From positions 1 to 23,883 of the IMG/VR virus record IMGVR_UViG_3300031957_000842: a stretch of DNA of 23,883 nt. One strand, written 5' to 3'. This DNA comes from a virus. Below the pieces are notes generated by a model. That model was not told the DNA's origin and searched no databases. It was given only the letters and a program-made list of their open reading frames with translations. Below, in pieces: positions 3,981 through 11,314 of the stretch (its first letter is position 1; each line of letters opens with the position of its first letter). Made by a program: the position numbers and the translations under genes.

Positions 3981-5427
3981 AAAAAAGAAACCTTCAAAAC
4001 TAGGATTTGCTACAAAGCAATTCATTAAAGCATTCAGGGGATATGATGCTATAAAGAACACTCGTTATCGTGCGAGGCGAGGCTATGAAGCTATCCGATC
4101 CGAAGAGATTGAATTAGGTAATTATGACAGAGACAAATTAATCTCTGCTTCTTTAGAATTTAGAAGAAACAATCCTGTTATTGTTTCAATGTCCCGATTG
4201 AGAAAGGCTGACATTGTAGGAAGAGGGATTATTCCACAGGCTAACACAGGAGACGATTCTCTCGATTCTAAGATCGAGGAAGAGTGGGCAGAGTTTAGCC
4301 AAGACCCTGACATCACAGGTCAATTCGATATGAGAGAAATTCAACAACAGATGGTTGATTCTCTTTTATTTTATGGCGATTGTGGATTGATAGTTTTGGA
4401 CGGAAAGGTTCAATTCATTGATGGTTCTCGAATCGGTAATCCAAAAGGAACGGCTACAGGTTCAGAGCAAGACAACTTTCAAAACGGAGTTGAGGTCAAT
4501 GATTTAGGGAAACCAATTAATTATTCTGTCGGCAATCGAGTAAATGGAACTTTAAAAGACTACAGATTAATCTCATCAAAGGACTTTATTCCTTTCTTCA
4601 GAAAGATTCGTCCTGTTCAATATCGAGGGATTCCCGAACTCGCTCCTATTTTAAACACTCTTCAAGATTGCGATGAATACGACAGGATTGAGATGATCTC
4701 AGCAAAGGTTGCTGCATCTCTATCGGTTGCAGTCAAAAGGCAGAACTCTTATGAGTATGAATTGCAAAATAAATTAGGCAACGAAGAGCAAGATTCGCTT
4801 GGGAATCTAGAAACTTTTGAGACAGGAAGATTCCATTACTTAGAACCTGATGAAGATGTCAGCGTTATAAGTTCAAACGGCAGACCGAATGTCGATGGAG
4901 TCGAATGGGTTTCATATTTATTGAGAAAGGTAGGAAGTGCAGTCGGCATTCCTTTAGAATTTTTATTGATGGAGATAGGAGGAAGTTCTTTCTCTGCATC
5001 TCAAGGAGTTGTTCTTCAGTATCAACAAACAGTTGAGAGTTATCAGACTGATTTAATCAGAGCTATGCAGACACTTTATCGAAGATGGTTGACTCAGAAG
5101 ATAGCCGACAACGAAATCTCAGTTCCTTCAGGAGTAGAAAATCCTTTTAAGGTTCGTTGGCAGAGACCTGCGTTTCGTTGGATTAACCGAGCAGCACAAG
5201 TAAAAGCAGATTTGGATTATTTCCGAGTTGGTGCAATGAGCTTGGATGATATAACTGCTCCTTTTGGATATACGGCTGAAGATGTAATGGTTCGCAAGGC
5301 TCAAAATATTTCAAAGGCTAAGAAGATAGCCGAACAAAACGGATTAGATTGGAAAGATTTAATAAATCCATTCCCAACATCAATCTCAGGAAACTATTCA
5401 GAAGTCATTGAAGATGCCTCTTCCTAA
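3973..5427 (+). CDS. Portal protein, lambda gpB family
   Basis: The 484-residue portal subunit forms the ring at the capsid vertex through which DNA enters and leaves. Recognisable family segments include the N-terminal YRARRGYEAIRS, the RLRKADIVGRGI region near residues 77-90, DGSRIGNP in the middle, the RGIPELAPIL loop near 218-228, and the conserved EFLLMEIGGSSFSASQG segment near 329-345. The closing QRPAFRWINRAAQVKADLDYF section also matches lambda-type portals. Length is normal for the family (about 480-530). It overlaps the gpW-like gene by 8 bases and the protease gene by 14 bases when that gene is started at its ATG. Confidence 0.95.
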   Translation: MAKKKKPSKLGFATKQFIKAFRGYDAIKNTRYRARRGYEAIRSEEIELGNYDRDKLISASLEFRRNNPVIVSMSRLRKADIVGRGIIPQANTGDDSLDSKIEEEWAEFSQDPDITGQFDMREIQQQMVDSLLFYGDCGLIVLDGKVQFIDGSRIGNPKGTATGSEQDNFQNGVEVNDLGKPINYSVGNRVNGTLKDYRLISSKDFIPFFRKIRPVQYRGIPELAPILNTLQDCDEYDRIEMISAKVAASLSVAVKRQNSYEYELQNKLGNEEQDSLGNLETFETGRFHYLEPDEDVSVISSNGRPNVDGVEWVSYLLRKVGSAVGIPLEFLLMEIGGSSFSASQGVVLQYQQTVESYQTDLIRAMQTLYRRWLTQKIADNEISVPSGVENPFKVRWQRPAFRWINRAAQVKADLDYFRVGAMSLDDITAPFGYTAEDVMVRKAQNISKAKKIAEQNGLDWKDLINPFPTSISGNYSEVIEDASS

Positions 5428-7702
5428 ACCAAGCAACCAAGAAAAGAGAGCAGAGTTTGTTGATCGTTGTATGAAAGACGATGAAACACTCAAGGACTTT
5501 CCTGACGAAAAGCAAAGAGTTGCAGTTTGTATTGGTATTTATAAAAAAGAAACTCAGTTGAACGAAGGTTCAAACGATAATGTCAGCAAGACAGTTGAGA
5601 AGGGGTTGGAGAAGAAACTCGAAGACCACCGAGAGAAAGTAGGAAAAGACAAACGCAAACAAACGACTTTAAGAAAGCTCAAGATTGTTTACAACCGAGG
5701 AATCGGAGCTTACAGATCAAATCCAAGTTCAGTCAGACCTTCAGTCGGTTCTCCTGAACAATGGGCAAGTGCAAGAGTGAACTCATTTCTTCACGCATTA
5801 AGAAATCTTCGTTACCGAAGTGGAAAACACGATACAGATTTACTTCCAAAGGATCATCCAATCAGGAAGAACATAGATAAGAAACAAGCGAGTTTAGACG
5901 ATCATAGGAGATACGAAGACGGAGAAGTTATTCCTTCTGCTCTTCCTCCTGCTTACAGAAAGAGTAGAAAAGATGGAGAAACAAAAGGACAAGCCTGCAT
6001 TAATTGCAAATTTTACAAGGAAGATCAAAAAGACCATCGCTTTTACTGCACTAAATTTGAAGCTCCTGTTCGACCTCAATATTGGTGCAAGGCTTGGAAA
6101 GCAAAAGGCGAAGCATTGGCTGAAACATATAATGATTATCCTGAGTCGGCTTCAAACAATGCGAAGAAAGTGTTGCGATGGAGAGACGAACACGGAGACG
6201 AAGTAAAAGGAATGACTCAAGTCGGATGGACAAGAGCAAACCAATTGGCAAAGCGAGAAAGGATTTCAAGAGAAACGATTGCAAGAATGGCATCATTCAA
6301 GAGGCATCAAAAGAATGCAGAGATTGATCCTAAATATAAAGCAACTCCTTGGAAGGACAAGGGTTATGTCGCTTGGCTTGGTTGGGGAGGAACTTCAGGA
6401 ATCGAGTGGGCGAGTAGAAAACTTAAACAAATTGACAAAAAACTGAATAGTAAAATGCAAAGTAAACAATACGGATTTTCAGCGTTAAACATTTCCGAAT
6501 CTAAAATTGACAAAGAGTCAGGGAAGATGTTCGGAGTTTCTCTTATAAGCGTAGGCGAGGCACTAGGTCACGAATTATTCGTGGACGATGATAGTATCGA
6601 TTCAATTCTCCAATCAATAGAAGGAGAAAAATTGCCTGCTTACATTACTCATAGAGGAGCATTGTTTGAAGATCGACTGACAAGGGAGATCGGAATGTTT
6701 ACAAACTTTAGAACGGAAAACGAAAGATTGATGGCAGACTTTGAAGCCTTTGAATCTTTCAGGGATGACGATAATCGCAAATTCAATCGCTTATTTGAGA
6801 TGGCTGAAAAAATGCCTGAACGATTTGGATTAAGCATTGTATTCTCAGCGACTCAAGCTTGGGCAACTCCTGAAGGAGATGTCGAGCTAGGAGGAAGACC
6901 CGAAGATGCTTTATTTGATTATCCATCAATTCGGGTTCAGGAAGTATCGAGTGCAGATTTTGTTGATACTCCTGCAGCAAATCAAAAAGGACTTTTTTCA
7001 AAAATAGAAATCAAACCAACAAGTAAAATGTTAAAATCAGAACTCATCGAAGCAAATGAAAAACTCTCTGCTGAGAACGAAGCTCTTAAAGCAAAAGTTG
7101 CAGAACAAGATTCTGTTGAACAAGAAGCCTTAGAAGCACAACTCTCAACCGAAGAGGCACAGATTGAGTCAAGCAACGAAGTTCAAGAAGAAGCTTCATC
7201 TGAAGAAACTCAAGAGTCTTTTAATAAAGACGAAGAGATGGCAGTCACAGACAATGAGAAAACTATCGGAAAAGGTGGTTCTCAAGGTTTAGAAGGTCAC
7301 GAAGATGAAGAGGAAATTGAAGAAGAAGAAGCTCAAGAGGAAGAAGAAAGCCTTGAAGAGAAAGTTGCTTCGCTTGAATCTGTTATCGCAAGCCTACAAG
7401 ATCAACTTAAAGAGAAGGACGAAGAAATGTCTAAACTCCAAGAGCAACTTGAAGGTCACGAAGAAGAAGAAGAAGAAATGAAAGAAAAACTCTCTAAGGT
7501 AACCGAAGAGAACTCAAAACTTTCTTCTCTTATCAAAGGAGCTAATCCTGTTGAAGTAAGTAAAGGAGACGATTCAATTTGGTCTCCAAGCAAATCAACT
7601 AAAGATCAATTCATTAAGGATTACGCTAAAGAAAAAAATATTTCAGAATTTACGGCAACTCTTCGTCTCGGCAAAGAGAAGCCTGAACTCTTTAAACTAT
7701 AA
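5414..7702 (+). CDS. Multi-module prohead protease-scaffold polyprotein
   Basis: Starting at the ATG at 5414 (a TTG lies 6 bases earlier) gives 762 residues. Modules in order: a small phage motif EFVDRCM...FPDEKQRVAVC (14-39); a basic region ending in a WASARVNSFLHALRNL helix (117-132); a four-cysteine cluster C195, C198, C212, C225; a domain common in phage protease polyproteins (241-341, with VGWTRANQLA and LGWGGTSG); the protease core (372-530) with candidate catalytic H413 in ITHRGAL and S474 in FGLSIVF and the closing FVDTPAAN motif; then a Glu-rich coiled-coil scaffold (540-707) with two LEGHE repeats; and a short C-terminal tail likely to contact the capsid protein. Protease plus scaffold in one chain recalls lambda C/Nu3. 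In-frame Met codons at 7028 and 7238 could give a separate scaffold product. Confidence 0.88.
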   Translation: MPLPKPSNQEKRAEFVDRCMKDDETLKDFPDEKQRVAVCIGIYKKETQLNEGSNDNVSKTVEKGLEKKLEDHREKVGKDKRKQTTLRKLKIVYNRGIGAYRSNPSSVRPSVGSPEQWASARVNSFLHALRNLRYRSGKHDTDLLPKDHPIRKNIDKKQASLDDHRRYEDGEVIPSALPPAYRKSRKDGETKGQACINCKFYKEDQKDHRFYCTKFEAPVRPQYWCKAWKAKGEALAETYNDYPESASNNAKKVLRWRDEHGDEVKGMTQVGWTRANQLAKRERISRETIARMASFKRHQKNAEIDPKYKATPWKDKGYVAWLGWGGTSGIEWASRKLKQIDKKLNSKMQSKQYGFSALNISESKIDKESGKMFGVSLISVGEALGHELFVDDDSIDSILQSIEGEKLPAYITHRGALFEDRLTREIGMFTNFRTENERLMADFEAFESFRDDDNRKFNRLFEMAEKMPERFGLSIVFSATQAWATPEGDVELGGRPEDALFDYPSIRVQEVSSADFVDTPAANQKGLFSKIEIKPTSKMLKSELIEANEKLSAENEALKAKVAEQDSVEQEALEAQLSTEEAQIESSNEVQEEASSEETQESFNKDEEMAVTDNEKTIGKGGSQGLEGHEDEEEIEEEEAQEEEESLEEKVASLESVIASLQDQLKEKDEEMSKLQEQLEGHEEEEEEMKEKLSKVTEENSKLSSLIKGANPVEVSKGDDSIWSPSKSTKDQFIKDYAKEKNISEFTATLRLGKEKPELFKL

Positions 7703-7721: not shown

Positions 7722-8093
7722 ATGTCAACAGTAATAAACGGAACTCAGCGAACCTTTACTGCAACAGGCACAATGTCAGCTTACATCTTAACTAAATTAG
7801 ATACTGACGGAACTGTCTCAACTGCAACAAAAGTCGCTTCAGGGGAAACTCGTGTAGGCTTCACAACAAGAGAAGTCTTATCAGCAGGGGATTCAACAGG
7901 AATCGCTTTGCTTAATGGTGGTGGTACTGCTTACGGAACAGCAGCAGGAACAATCACTAATGCAGGGACTGCTCTTTACGGAGCGTCAGGTGGTAAACTA
8001 GGAACAACTGCTTCAGGTGGTGTTGTTGGTTTCTCTTTAACATCAGCAGCAGCAAATGATGTTATCGAAGTTTTACTTCACGAATCTGCATAA
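7722..8093 (+). CDS. Capsid decoration protein (DUF2190-like)
   Basis: The 123-residue product is rich in Gly, Ala, Thr and Ser. Pattern features are an N-terminal strand-forming segment, a STGIALLNGG motif near residues 58-67, and the AGTALYGASGGKL...GGVVGFSLTSAAANDVIEVLL ending, which is typical of small phage decoration proteins annotated as DUF2190. These trimerise on the capsid surface and stabilise it after expansion. Position between protease-scaffold and major capsid protein equals lambda gpD. The leader TAACAATTAATTATTTAAAATT before the ATG (19 bases between the genes) has no Shine-Dalgarno site but resembles the leaders at 16859 and 19044. Confidence 0.75.
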   Translation: MSTVINGTQRTFTATGTMSAYILTKLDTDGTVSTATKVASGETRVGFTTREVLSAGDSTGIALLNGGGTAYGTAAGTITNAGTALYGASGGKLGTTASGGVVGFSLTSAAANDVIEVLLHESA

Positions 8094-8112: not shown

Positions 8113-9033
8113 ATGTCTTTATACGGAAACGCATCATTCAATCCTGTGCTTTCAGAAGCACTTAACAAGATAGGGGAAAACAAATTTGTTGGAACTTCAA
8201 TTCTTCCGATCAGAAATGTCGGAACGAAAAACGGAGATTATCCTATCTTTTCAGACGATCAGTTCGATCTTAACGATTCAGCTATTCGTTCAGCAGGCTC
8301 TTCATTCGCTCGAAGAGATTTCGATTATGGTAAGCAATCTTATTCTTGCTTGCAGTACGCTTTAGAGGGAGTTCTTCCTGACGAAGATTCTAGCAAAGCA
8401 AATGATGACGGCATCTCAGATGCTGCAGGTGCTATCGCTCAAAAACTTCAGCGAGACATTATGGTTGGTCACGAACTTCGTGTCGCATCTGCCTTGCAAA
8501 ATGGTGGCTTTACTGCAACTGCTCAAACAGGTGCAGCGATGTCAGACTCAGCAGCAGCAAAACCTATCACAACTATTCAAAACGCAGTTGAGCGTTTGAA
8601 TGCAAATGGTATGTTCGACAACCTTGCACTCATCATCGAGTCTTCATTGTATAACGAAATGATCAACACAGACGATGTTCGTAACATCTTCAATGGTAAT
8701 GGTCAATATACAAGCAAAGACATCTTAACAAGTGCTTTAGGTGTTAGCAACATTATCGTATGTCCTACACGCTACAATTCAGCAGCTAAAGGACAGAGTG
8801 CATCTCGCACAAAGATTTGGGAAACTGATACTTATTATGTTGCTCAAATCGCAGGAGGCGAGTTCTCAAATGGTGGTATCGGAAGAACATTAGCTTATTC
8901 TCCTGATGGTGGAGCATTTACTGCTGAAACTTACAGAGACGAGCCAATCAAATCTGACATCCTTCGTGTTTATATGTCAACAGACGAAGTGATCATCAAT
9001 GCCAACGCAGGCGAAGAGATCACAGGTGCTTAA
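8113..9033 (+). CDS. Major capsid protein, HK97 fold
   Basis: The 306-residue product is the shell subunit by position (after protease-scaffold and decoration protein) and by pattern. The N-terminal NPVLSEALNKIG and SILPIRNVGTKNGDYPIF segments match E-loop-side sequences of lambda gpE-like capsid proteins. An acidic and aromatic loop (RRDFDYGKQSY), a long spine helix (DAAGAIAQKLQRDIMVGHELRVASAL, about residues 101-127) and the A-domain with TIQNAVERLN and LALIIESSLYNEM then follow. Length is at the short end of the family (lambda gpE has 341), with no separate N-terminal delta domain, as expected where the scaffold is supplied by the upstream polyprotein. It has one of the few clear ribosome-binding sites and is followed by a very strong terminator. 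Confidence 0.92.
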   Translation: MSLYGNASFNPVLSEALNKIGENKFVGTSILPIRNVGTKNGDYPIFSDDQFDLNDSAIRSAGSSFARRDFDYGKQSYSCLQYALEGVLPDEDSSKANDDGISDAAGAIAQKLQRDIMVGHELRVASALQNGGFTATAQTGAAMSDSAAAKPITTIQNAVERLNANGMFDNLALIIESSLYNEMINTDDVRNIFNGNGQYTSKDILTSALGVSNIIVCPTRYNSAAKGQSASRTKIWETDTYYVAQIAGGEFSNGGIGRTLAYSPDGGAFTAETYRDEPIKSDILRVYMSTDEVIINANAGEEITGA

Positions 9034-9062: not shown

Positions 9063-9096
9063 AGTCCTCACTCTTCGGAGTGGGGGCTTTTTTTTT
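9063..9096 (+). terminator. Strong rho-independent terminator after capsid gene
   Basis: An 11-bp stem (9063-9073 with 9078-9088, two G-U pairs) is closed by a C(TTCG)G tetraloop and followed by a run of nine T residues (9088-9096). It ends the head transcript after the major capsid gene and separates it from the connector and tail genes. Confidence 0.92.
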
Positions 9097-9113
9097 ACAA
9101 TCTTCCTATTTGT

Positions 9114-9446
9114 ATGAGTAGCATTATTAGTTCGTCATTGATCGGAGACAACCTGAACTTCGCAATTACGAATATGACAACAACCTTAACTGCCGTAACT
9201 CCAACCAATACGGAGACATATATCGCAAACAAACAAGATGTCGAGATTGCTTTCGCTATCTTTGAAGACGGAAGAGAGACAACGATTGACACAAAGTTTT
9301 ATTTGAATATTGGTAGTTATACAACGCTACCAACAAAAGGAATGGTTCTTAATGATGGAAGCAGAAATTACAAAGTTGTTAACACTCAAAAAGATGCTAT
9401 AAATGTCACACTCAGAATTGATTGCGAAGCCGAAGGACAGAGATAA
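9114..9446 (+). CDS. Head-closure (stopper) protein, putative
   Basis: The 110-residue product is mostly beta, with a C-terminal half YTTLPTKGMVLNDGSRNYKVVN...VTLRIDCEA that matches the usual layout of gpFII/gp16-like head-closure proteins: a strand with Pro, then G-x-x-V-x-x-x-G-x-x-Y-x-V. Such proteins bind under the connector and plug the portal after packaging. Its place as the first gene after the capsid gene and before the tail-terminator gene agrees. It begins 17 bases after the terminator T-run, with a T-rich leader and no Shine-Dalgarno site. Overlap of 44 bases with the glycosyltransferase start suggests that gene was inserted between two formerly adjacent connector genes. Confidence 0.6.
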   Translation: MSSIISSSLIGDNLNFAITNMTTTLTAVTPTNTETYIANKQDVEIAFAIFEDGRETTIDTKFYLNIGSYTTLPTKGMVLNDGSRNYKVVNTQKDAINVTLRIDCEAEGQR

Positions 9447-10512
9447 ATTAAATCTTTATCTAATAGGATACTCTCCTGACTTAAAATATTTAAAGAGACT
9501 GCTTTCTCAGGTTAAGCCGATTATTAAGTCTCTCTCTTTTGTCTGCACAGATGACAAGGACGATTGCTTGGAGGCGATAAAAGAATCAGGGATTCCTTAT
9601 CAGTTTGATAGAATGATCTTCCCAAGCAGAGAAGACTTTGATTTCTCCAAAGCGAGAAACCTTGCTAGGAAGATGTCATTGAAGAACGAAGGTTGGAGTT
9701 TTTGGTTGGATTGCGATGACACAATCGAGAATCCTGAGAAGATAATTGAGTTAATGCTCAAACATCCAAACGCAGAAGCTTATGGGCTTCCTTACGATGT
9801 AAATGAACGATCGGGGAATTTATTTAAGATTAGAATACATAAAGACGGATGGCATTGGCAAAATAAGGTTCACGAAGAGCTTATTCCTATCCTAGAAGGC
9901 GATAAGAAGAGAAATGTGACTGTTCTGTCAGAATGTCCTGTCAAACACGCTCCTGACGAAGATAAGAGCAATCACGAGTTTCATATTAGCCTCCTAAAGA
10001 AGAATGTTAAGACTGCCGAGGCAGATTATACTTATATTGCCAAAGAATACTTTAATTGCTTACAAAATGAGAAGGCGATCCCTTACATAAAGAAAGCCTT
10101 GGCGATTCATTCCTACCCTCACGAAATTTATAACCTTTGGATGATGCTTGGGATTTGTTATGCCGTTGATGATAAGAACGAAGAAGCGAAGGAGGCTTGG
10201 CTTTCAGGGATTCCTGTCGCTCCTTATCGCAAGGAGGCTTATTACTATCTTGCAGAGCTTTATGGTAAGCTAGGAGACAACGAAAACCTTCATAAGGGTC
10301 TCGGATACATCTGTGCCTGTAACGCTCAAATTGATAAAGGAGAGCCTCTTCAGAATATGAATATATATAATTATATGGGCTATCTTTTACACGCTCGATA
10401 TTTACAAAAGTTCAATAAGTATAAGGAGGCTCTTGAAATTTTAGAACAAATCAAAGAGCCAAATGAAGAATCTGATTTAATAAGAAAAGAGATAAACGAT
10501 GCCTGCTCCTGA
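9403..10512 (+). CDS. Glycosyltransferase family 2-like with TPR region
   Basis: The 369-residue product has a GT-A start (LNLYLIGYS, 16-24), the family 2 signature region DFDFSKARN (78-86) leading to WLDCDDTI (101-108) in the place of the nucleotide-sugar/metal DxD motif, and a W..KVHEEL motif (151-160) usual in GT2 proteins that carry TPR repeats. Residues about 200-350 form helical pairs of TPR type (for example AIPYIKKALAI and EAKEAWLSGI). It would transfer a sugar from a nucleotide-sugar to an acceptor in the cytoplasm. The embedding in connector genes suggests a virion protein or tail protein as acceptor, but host surface modification is possible. The ATG lies 44 bases inside the upstream gene; a TTG at 9418 is an alternative. 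There is no TM segment, so the enzyme is soluble. Confidence 0.85.
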   Translation: MSHSELIAKPKDRDKLNLYLIGYSPDLKYLKRLLSQVKPIIKSLSFVCTDDKDDCLEAIKESGIPYQFDRMIFPSREDFDFSKARNLARKMSLKNEGWSFWLDCDDTIENPEKIIELMLKHPNAEAYGLPYDVNERSGNLFKIRIHKDGWHWQNKVHEELIPILEGDKKRNVTVLSECPVKHAPDEDKSNHEFHISLLKKNVKTAEADYTYIAKEYFNCLQNEKAIPYIKKALAIHSYPHEIYNLWMMLGICYAVDDKNEEAKEAWLSGIPVAPYRKEAYYYLAELYGKLGDNENLHKGLGYICACNAQIDKGEPLQNMNIYNYMGYLLHARYLQKFNKYKEALEILEQIKEPNEESDLIRKEINDACS

Positions 10513-11314
10513 TTTTACAACATTGCTCGACTTCGAGACTAACATCGAAACTGCTGCAACGACTTTTCTTTCAACCGACACAGGACTGACTGCATCGAGT
10601 TTGTTTGCAACATTGGATCAGGACACTTTCGTTGTTCCAAGATTGGAAGTAATGTTTGAGAAGGGCGAAGCTCTCGATCCTCCAACTCCTCAAACTGAAA
10701 ACAGTTCTCAAGTTGAATATATGCAACATAAAGGAGTTCTATCAATTAGAGTTGTTAGCGATGCTTCTGTTGTAGATACTCAAACAACTCACAGGCAGTT
10801 GAGAGGGAAGGTCAGAACTTCAATGCTCCTGAATGCTCAGAACTTCACAACTCCTTCGGGAGGGTCAACAGTCCTTCCTTACTATGAGGTCAAATATATG
10901 AGACCGACAGGGACAACTTATGAAGTTGATGGAGACTTGGCGATTTCATCTCTGACTTACGATATGACAATCGCAATCAAAACCGATGCTTTCCCTTCAG
11001 CTAATCTTAGATTGAAAACCTTAAACGAATTAGGGGATATTATTTCAATCGGCAATCCTTTTTACGATACTAGCACTCCAAGTCTGACAACATCATTCCA
11101 AACAGTTGGGAAGATTGGATTGTTGCAAGGAACTCAAACTGTAAATGTTACAGTTGATTTCGGCTCTTATGATATATCGACATCGGACTTCACGATCGTA
11201 AACGCAAGCAATTTGCAAACAGTTCAGACTTCGGGAGAATTTAGTTTTGATATTAATACTGATTCTCTCTCAAACGGAGACAATATTGACATCGGAGTTT
11301 TCTTTGAAAATTGA
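10499..11314 (+). CDS. Tail-terminator-like protein with extra C-terminal domain
   Basis: The 271-residue protein has an N-terminal domain (about 1-165) with the order expected of tail terminators: an N-terminal helix, a PRLEVMFEKGEA strand, a GVLSIRVVS strand, the helix THRQLRGKVRTSML, then LPYYEVKYMRP and a TYDMTIAIKTDAF strand. Such proteins cap the tail tube and bind the head-closure protein. The remaining 100 residues are Ser/Thr-rich and look like a beta-sandwich (about 170-271), not part of a minimal gpU-like protein (about 130 residues), so this looks like a fusion that adds a surface-exposed Ig-like knob. It overlaps the glycosyltransferase stop by 14 bases. Assignment is by pattern and synteny. 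Confidence 0.6.
   Translation: MPAPDFTTLLDFETNIETAATTFLSTDTGLTASSLFATLDQDTFVVPRLEVMFEKGEALDPPTPQTENSSQVEYMQHKGVLSIRVVSDASVVDTQTTHRQLRGKVRTSMLLNAQNFTTPSGGSTVLPYYEVKYMRPTGTTYEVDGDLAISSLTYDMTIAIKTDAFPSANLRLKTLNELGDIISIGNPFYDTSTPSLTTSFQTVGKIGLLQGTQTVNVTVDFGSYDISTSDFTIVNASNLQTVQTSGEFSFDINTDSLSNGDNIDIGVFFEN

Follow-up and report, generated by a model that had tools for sequence, protein, structure and literature searches.

A candidate virion-modifying GT-A/TPR glycosyltransferase encoded in the head-tail module of a tailed phage

A glycosyltransferase gene among connector genes

Many phage glycosyltransferases have unassigned acceptors, be it DNA, the host surface or the virion. One such gene lies between the connector genes of the virus record IMGVR_UViG_3300031957_000842, and its place raises the question of why a phage would make a glycosyltransferase together with its head-tail junction, and which molecule the enzyme would modify. 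The window hereafter means the whole stretch of 23,883 nucleotides that was analysed (positions 1 to 23,883 of the record), in which terminase, portal and capsid genes around the glycosyltransferase gene (GT) form a tailed-phage morphogenesis module. The region contains the following features.

7722-8093, + strand: small Thr-rich protein, decoration-protein-like by position and a candidate acceptor (gene order, just upstream of the capsid gene, and composition)
8113-9033, + strand: major capsid protein, a candidate acceptor (phrog_1005, E 2.4e-32)
9065-9097, + strand: terminator-like hairpin with a T-run, directly downstream of the capsid gene (sequence; gap sequences of relatives)
9114-9446, + strand: small connector gene, probably head closure, 110 aa (position between the capsid and tail-terminator genes)
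9403-9446, + strand: out-of-frame overlap between the start of GT and the end of the upstream gene, encoding GT residues 1-11
9403-10512, + strand: GT, a GT2-type glycosyltransferase with C-terminal TPR helices, ATG start, 369 aa (phrog_13126, AlphaFold model, SunS/ThuS fold, purifying selection)
10499-11314, + strand: tail terminator, gpU-like fold over residues ~8-165; its Ser/Thr-rich C-terminal extension is optional (fold matches)

Judged from its sequence, GT is a genuine gene under strong purifying selection. Its dN/dS is 0.058 and 0.136 against two relatives about 96% identical, similar to that of the capsid gene (0.14-0.16), and the reading frame is intact in homologues down to ~35-43% identity. 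As reported in a preliminary description of this DNA, the frame carries the motifs DFSKARN, WLDCDDTI and W..KVHEEL and shares 44 bases with the upstream gene and 14 bases with the downstream gene. The upstream overlap extends over 29-95 bases in every GT-bearing relative measured (counted from the first in-frame start). The conserved core of the protein, DKL.LY.IG, starts at the stop codon of the upstream gene, and residues 1-11, encoded by the overlap, have a pLDDT below 50 in the AlphaFold model and are thus predicted to be disordered.

The gene at 10499-11314, earlier claimed to encode the tail terminator, is confirmed as such by its fold: the list of matches is filled with terminators, lambda gpU and T5 p142 among them, with Z scores of up to 13. 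The companion claim that 9114-9446 encodes the head-closure protein fits the position of the gene, on which the call rests; its family assignment found no support, neither PHROGs nor any other family match identifying the product as head closure. A hairpin equivalent to that after the capsid gene stands in the relatives read, GT-bearing or GT-free, and may keep the enzyme and the connectors below capsid levels; the terminator scan did not list this + strand hairpin. The promoter scan remained at chance level (14 found compared to 11.3 expected). Late expression of GT follows from its position in the morphogenesis operon, and we propose that GT would be translated as part of this head-tail assembly operon.

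Other features of the head region deserve mention in their own right. Between the portal and decoration-like genes, 5408-7702 of the window encodes a large protein with a four-cysteine stretch, which matches the Pfam high-potential iron-sulfur protein family above cut-off (E 5.9e-6) as well as DUF5824, an unusual product for a head-assembly region. The gap between capsid and connector genes is an insertion hotspot that holds differing small open reading frames in many relatives (e.g., L004:4683-5159, L005:5267-5644, L030:9115-9522 and L031:3794-4680). A tandem pair of decoration-like genes precedes the capsid gene in the GT-free loci L011, L012, L013, L015, L016 and L019.

The predicted enzyme and its characterised counterparts

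Structure prediction bears out the earlier reading of GT as a GT2-type enzyme with TPR helices. The AlphaFold model (pLDDT 89, pTM 0.82) places a GT-A domain, in which strands and helices alternate across residues 16-182, ahead of the TPR helices, and the predicted GT-A fold includes the DxD of a putative nucleotide-sugar site. SunS and ThuS are the best whole-chain matches and cover the GT domain: they account for the first six PDB matches (E 4.8e-14 for 7msn to 7.6e-11), followed by a TPR-only match at 3.5e-06, and VIA-align gave SunS (7msp) a Z score of 21.6 over 274 residues compared to 18.5 for the top TPR-only entry. The overall rmsd of the Foldseek alignment with SunS is high (13.6 over both domains), so that the two domains differ in their orientation. 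The parts of the protein to which we attach a role are located as follows.

9640-9660, + strand: DFSKARN motif, residues 80-86 (R85 never varies among 31 diverse homologues)
9703-9720, + strand: WLDCDD, residues 101-106, containing the DxD, putatively the nucleotide-sugar/metal site of the GT-A domain
9850-9879, + strand: W150-E159 region (W.W....HEE; W152, H157 and E158 invariant in the same 31 homologues)
9973-10509, + strand: TPR-like helices, running from residue ~191 to the C terminus, a candidate acceptor-binding surface by analogy with GmaR and FlmG

R144 is likewise invariant in the alignment of 31 diverse homologues, and D103-C-D105-D106 is present in all focal GT homologues. The DxD belonged to the search pattern for distant homologues, such that its invariance among these is partly by construction; W152, H157 and E158 lie outside that pattern.

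Family searches agree with the model to varying degrees. The protein matches phrog_13126 over its full length (E 5.6e-21, residues 27-364 to positions 13-351 of 394), a family whose name, 'beta-1,4-glycosyltransferase', is an annotation only, and the viral structure library BFVD contains many phage and giant-virus models of like architecture (TM 0.7-0.8). A profile of the GT domain alone matches GmaR (E 7.7e-5, profile positions 15-152) and also yeast Mnn9. The TPR helices are seen in the model of the window protein and in Pfam matches across the GT family. The window protein itself has no Pfam Glycos_transf_2 match and an Anp1 match below cut-off; among 10 family members, PF00535 (best 3e-5) and Anp1 are each matched in 4. 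SunS is absent among the sequence matches shown for GT, and the similarity between the two is one of fold only. A scan of cellular genomes for GT returned a single weak match, from a Fimbriimonadia MAG, and the close relatives of GT in annotated phages amount to three records of only 24% identity.

The SunS/ThuS glycocin S-glycosyltransferases (7msn, 7msp, 7msk) resemble the phage protein in that TPR-like helices follow a GT-A catalytic domain, at about 15% identity. These enzymes act on a small bacteriocin peptide, and no gene for a bacteriocin-type acceptor peptide was recognised in the window. The GT domain of the Listeria protein GmaR (PDB 22ao), a flagellin O-GlcNAc transferase that is also an antirepressor (PMC9638930), is a like GT2 domain with DFS.ARN, DxD and HE.L and also precedes TPR helices; however, GmaR comprises 637 aa with extra linker and antirepressor domains, both absent from the phage protein, which ends with its TPR region at residue 369. 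Binding of the acceptor protein by the TPR part has been proposed for GmaR (PMC9638930) and shown for FlmG (PMC7591256). As modelled, GT is of a kind already known, a GT-A/TPR enzyme of SunS-like fold. We infer that it is catalytically active and has a protein acceptor; both closest characterised enzymes, SunS-type and GmaR, modify polypeptides.

Presence of GT and candidate acceptors within the lineage

A capsid-based search returned 56 related loci. GT lies between the connector and terminator genes in the window and in L002, L003, L004, L005, L030, L037, L045, L049 and L053, and follows the connector gene in L048, whose contig ends inside GT. Later searches added the GT-bearing L069, L070, L072 and L075, the last again ending within GT. 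The placement of GT inside structural genes, as first described, is thus seen in 15 related loci, whose GT proteins diverge to ~35% identity among themselves. In 31 other relatives, connector and terminator genes are directly adjacent with their neighbours unchanged. The conserved linkage with the terminator gene that had been anticipated is therefore not obligatory, absence of GT with unchanged neighbours being the very outcome that the preliminary description had named as speaking against tight coupling. Since these 31 relatives manage without it, GT is dispensable; its long retention and divergence to such low identity argue that its function is useful nonetheless.

For phylogenetic analyses, contigs ending before the junction were scored as unknown rather than GT-free. 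In a connector tree containing GT-free outgroup loci, the GT-free group nests inside the GT-bearing group with L030 as its sister (support of 94/99 for L030 plus the GT-free group, 89/81 for the GT-free group alone). The portal tree also separates the GT-bearing and GT-free groups, with weak support (48/91). With modest support, this history suggests one gain of GT followed by one later loss.

The preliminary description had named the Ser/Thr-rich C-terminal domain of the terminator as a possible acceptor. This candidate fails: the extension varies independently of GT (3/7 compared to 9/21 after dereplication, Fisher p = 1.0), being missing in the GT-bearing L005, L045, L049 and L069 and present in GT-free phages. 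For the decoration-like protein, Thr77 occurred in 15/15 GT-bearing and 0/36 GT-free copies of the first set (51 copies). A prediction based on Thr77, fixed before new loci were added, failed, as the GT-free outgroup loci L191-L199 also have Thr; Thr77 was accordingly rejected. The association between GT and clades of the decoration-like protein was rejected as well, being largely phylogeny, for GT-bearing loci also separate on the portal and connector trees; L031, which is GT-free and lacks Thr77, groups with GT-bearing phages in the decoration-protein tree. Position 17 is Thr or Ser with GT and Ala without it, except for Ser in the GT-free L031, which makes Thr17 a weak lead, drawn from alignment and confounded with descent. 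In the capsid protein, no Ser, Thr, Asn or Cys column tracks the presence of GT.

Other modification genes occur in these phages. Tet_JBP and a TET-associated glycosyltransferase (TAGT) were found in five contigs, with one TAGT match below cut-off, and a further Tet_JBP match was found in G080. Base-modification genes are present in the GT-bearing L064 (16602-19369; IMGVR_UViG_3300046169_000048) and in G006, G013, G028, G041 and G080. In the GT-free L066 (14248-16274), probable tail-fibre genes flank a gene for a nucleotide-sugar epimerase (phrog_540, E 7.9e-72) and one for a possible glycosyltransferase that matches no family.

Recurrence behind capsid genes and the likely target

Distant homologues were gathered by motif and alignment, ignoring their neighbours. 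They form 24 distant clusters at 70% identity (a twenty-fifth, L075, is part of the focal lineage). For 14 of the 24, the gene of a PHROGs major head protein stops 77-1795 bp before GT; with the annotated phage MW202718 included, the median distance is 645 bp. The head proteins upstream belong to five capsid families (PHROGs 283, 1005, 1328, 212 and 1357). The circular genome of MW202718 carries terminase, portal, capsid protein, one small gene and GT in this order, and in MW202497 a GT2 gene lies between terminase and portal. Random placement in a 60-gene genome would yield 14/24 with P ~1e-12, a value that treats clusters as independent, which they are not, and that rests on a rough null (3 of about 60 genes) computed for GT2-TPR alone. 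By capsid family, adjacency holds for five of ~eleven lineages, a number that is itself an estimate, with P between 1e-4 and 0.02 depending on the assumed rate. Several distant homologues are multidomain proteins of 720-850 aa. GroEL-like genes lie beside GT2-TPR genes in the head-module region of some distant phages (L098:5644-6996 and L111:609-2030 by sequence reading, L137:5640-7208 by annotation).

The architecture of the enzyme is ordinary; its place is informative, and what merits further attention is that GT2-TPR genes recur behind capsid genes. Since unrelated phages share this location shortly downstream of the capsid gene, glycosylation of a virion protein has the best support among the functions considered. 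The original suggestion that sugar is added to a virion protein thereby survives, shorn of the terminator domain as its acceptor. We consider it fairly probable that GT is a GT-A/TPR enzyme made within the head-tail operon that glycosylates a virion protein of the phage itself while particles assemble. More tentatively, and with somewhat less than even confidence, we propose that the SunS/GmaR-like GT2-TPR family is a recurrent, optional morphogenesis component that directly follows the capsid gene in five or more capsid families, where it would glycosylate capsid or decoration proteins. The placement could also reflect an insertion hotspot, other small open reading frames being inserted after the capsid gene.

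The main rival is that GT is a moron-type gene whose enzyme modifies a host molecule, be it a surface glycan, a lipid or a protein, for instance to block superinfection, its place in the operon ensuring late expression and nothing more. Such a role is possible, if rather unlikely. It would suit an optional gene with apparently one gain and one loss, in a neighbourhood where other small open reading frames have also been inserted, and PHROGs files the family under moron, auxiliary and host takeover functions. However, recurrence right behind the capsid genes of five families is unexpected for a late gene of this sort, the characterised enzymes of closest fold modify peptides or proteins, and no partner gene from a sugar pathway could be recognised in the window. 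We give even less credence, and indeed very little, to the idea that catalysis has been lost and that GT is a TPR chaperone or scaffold in head-tail joining. The TPR domain and the position between connector genes would fit such a role, for which GmaR offers the precedent of a GT-TPR protein with a second function (PMC9638930), but family members retain both the DxD and the R/W/H/E motif residues, dN/dS is low and 31 relatives do without the gene.

A role in DNA modification was considered since L030, which bears GT, also encodes a Tet_JBP oxygenase, a TAGT and two ParB-like genes, and since the window contains a dNMP kinase gene; GT would then cooperate with the TET/TAGT cassette, adding or extending sugars on hypermodified phage DNA. 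TAGT (PF20691) is, like GT, a phage glycosyltransferase found in some of these relatives, and acts on DNA (PMC13390438). The GT protein has no Pfam match to PF20691, and its closest folds act on polypeptides. Moreover, among the four contigs with TET, TAGT and a known junction, only L030 has GT, whereas L021, L026 and L035 lack it, and the TAGT gene of L030 sits with TET, away from the capsid gene, unlike the GT2-TPR gene. No TET or TAGT was found in the window record, which like all contigs here is a fragment, and no TET in the other GT2-TPR records searched, including MW202718. L190, which at the portal shares 99% identity with the window, shows no TET on its 13.3 kb, although this is a fragment and a cassette may lie elsewhere in the genome; in it, only 140 bases separate a small conserved gene (5542-5958) from the terminase small subunit gene (6099), where L030 has the cassette. 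DNA glycosylation by GT is hence an unlikely explanation, to which we would assign only a slight chance.

Returning to virion glycosylation, we envisage GT as a cytoplasmic GT-A (GT2-like) enzyme whose C-terminal TPR domain would hold the acceptor polypeptide. By analogy with GmaR (PMC9638930) and FlmG (PMC7591256), the TPR surface would recruit a virion protein, onto which the sugar would be transferred; the capsid or decoration protein is the likeliest candidate, ahead of a neck or tail protein. The benefit to the phage may be, for example, a change in surface, stability or recognition. A precedent is provided by mycobacteriophage Che8 and its relatives, where capsid and tail-tube proteins bear glycans that have been linked to glycosyltransferases encoded by the phage, according to the accounts of Freeman et al. 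2023 in PMC11256854 and PMC12619734. In Maravista, a related phage of cluster F1, the glycosyltransferase genes are located towards the 3′ end of the genome (PMC11256854), in contrast to the head-tail junction occupied by GT.

The lineages named above, with and without GT, are concrete material for a direct comparison of virion glycosylation. If our reading is true, phage-encoded glycosylation of virions would be far commoner than the few known mycobacteriophage cases, and a capsid-adjacent subfamily of glycosyltransferases in unrelated lineages would let gene order pick out the enzymes directed at the virion.
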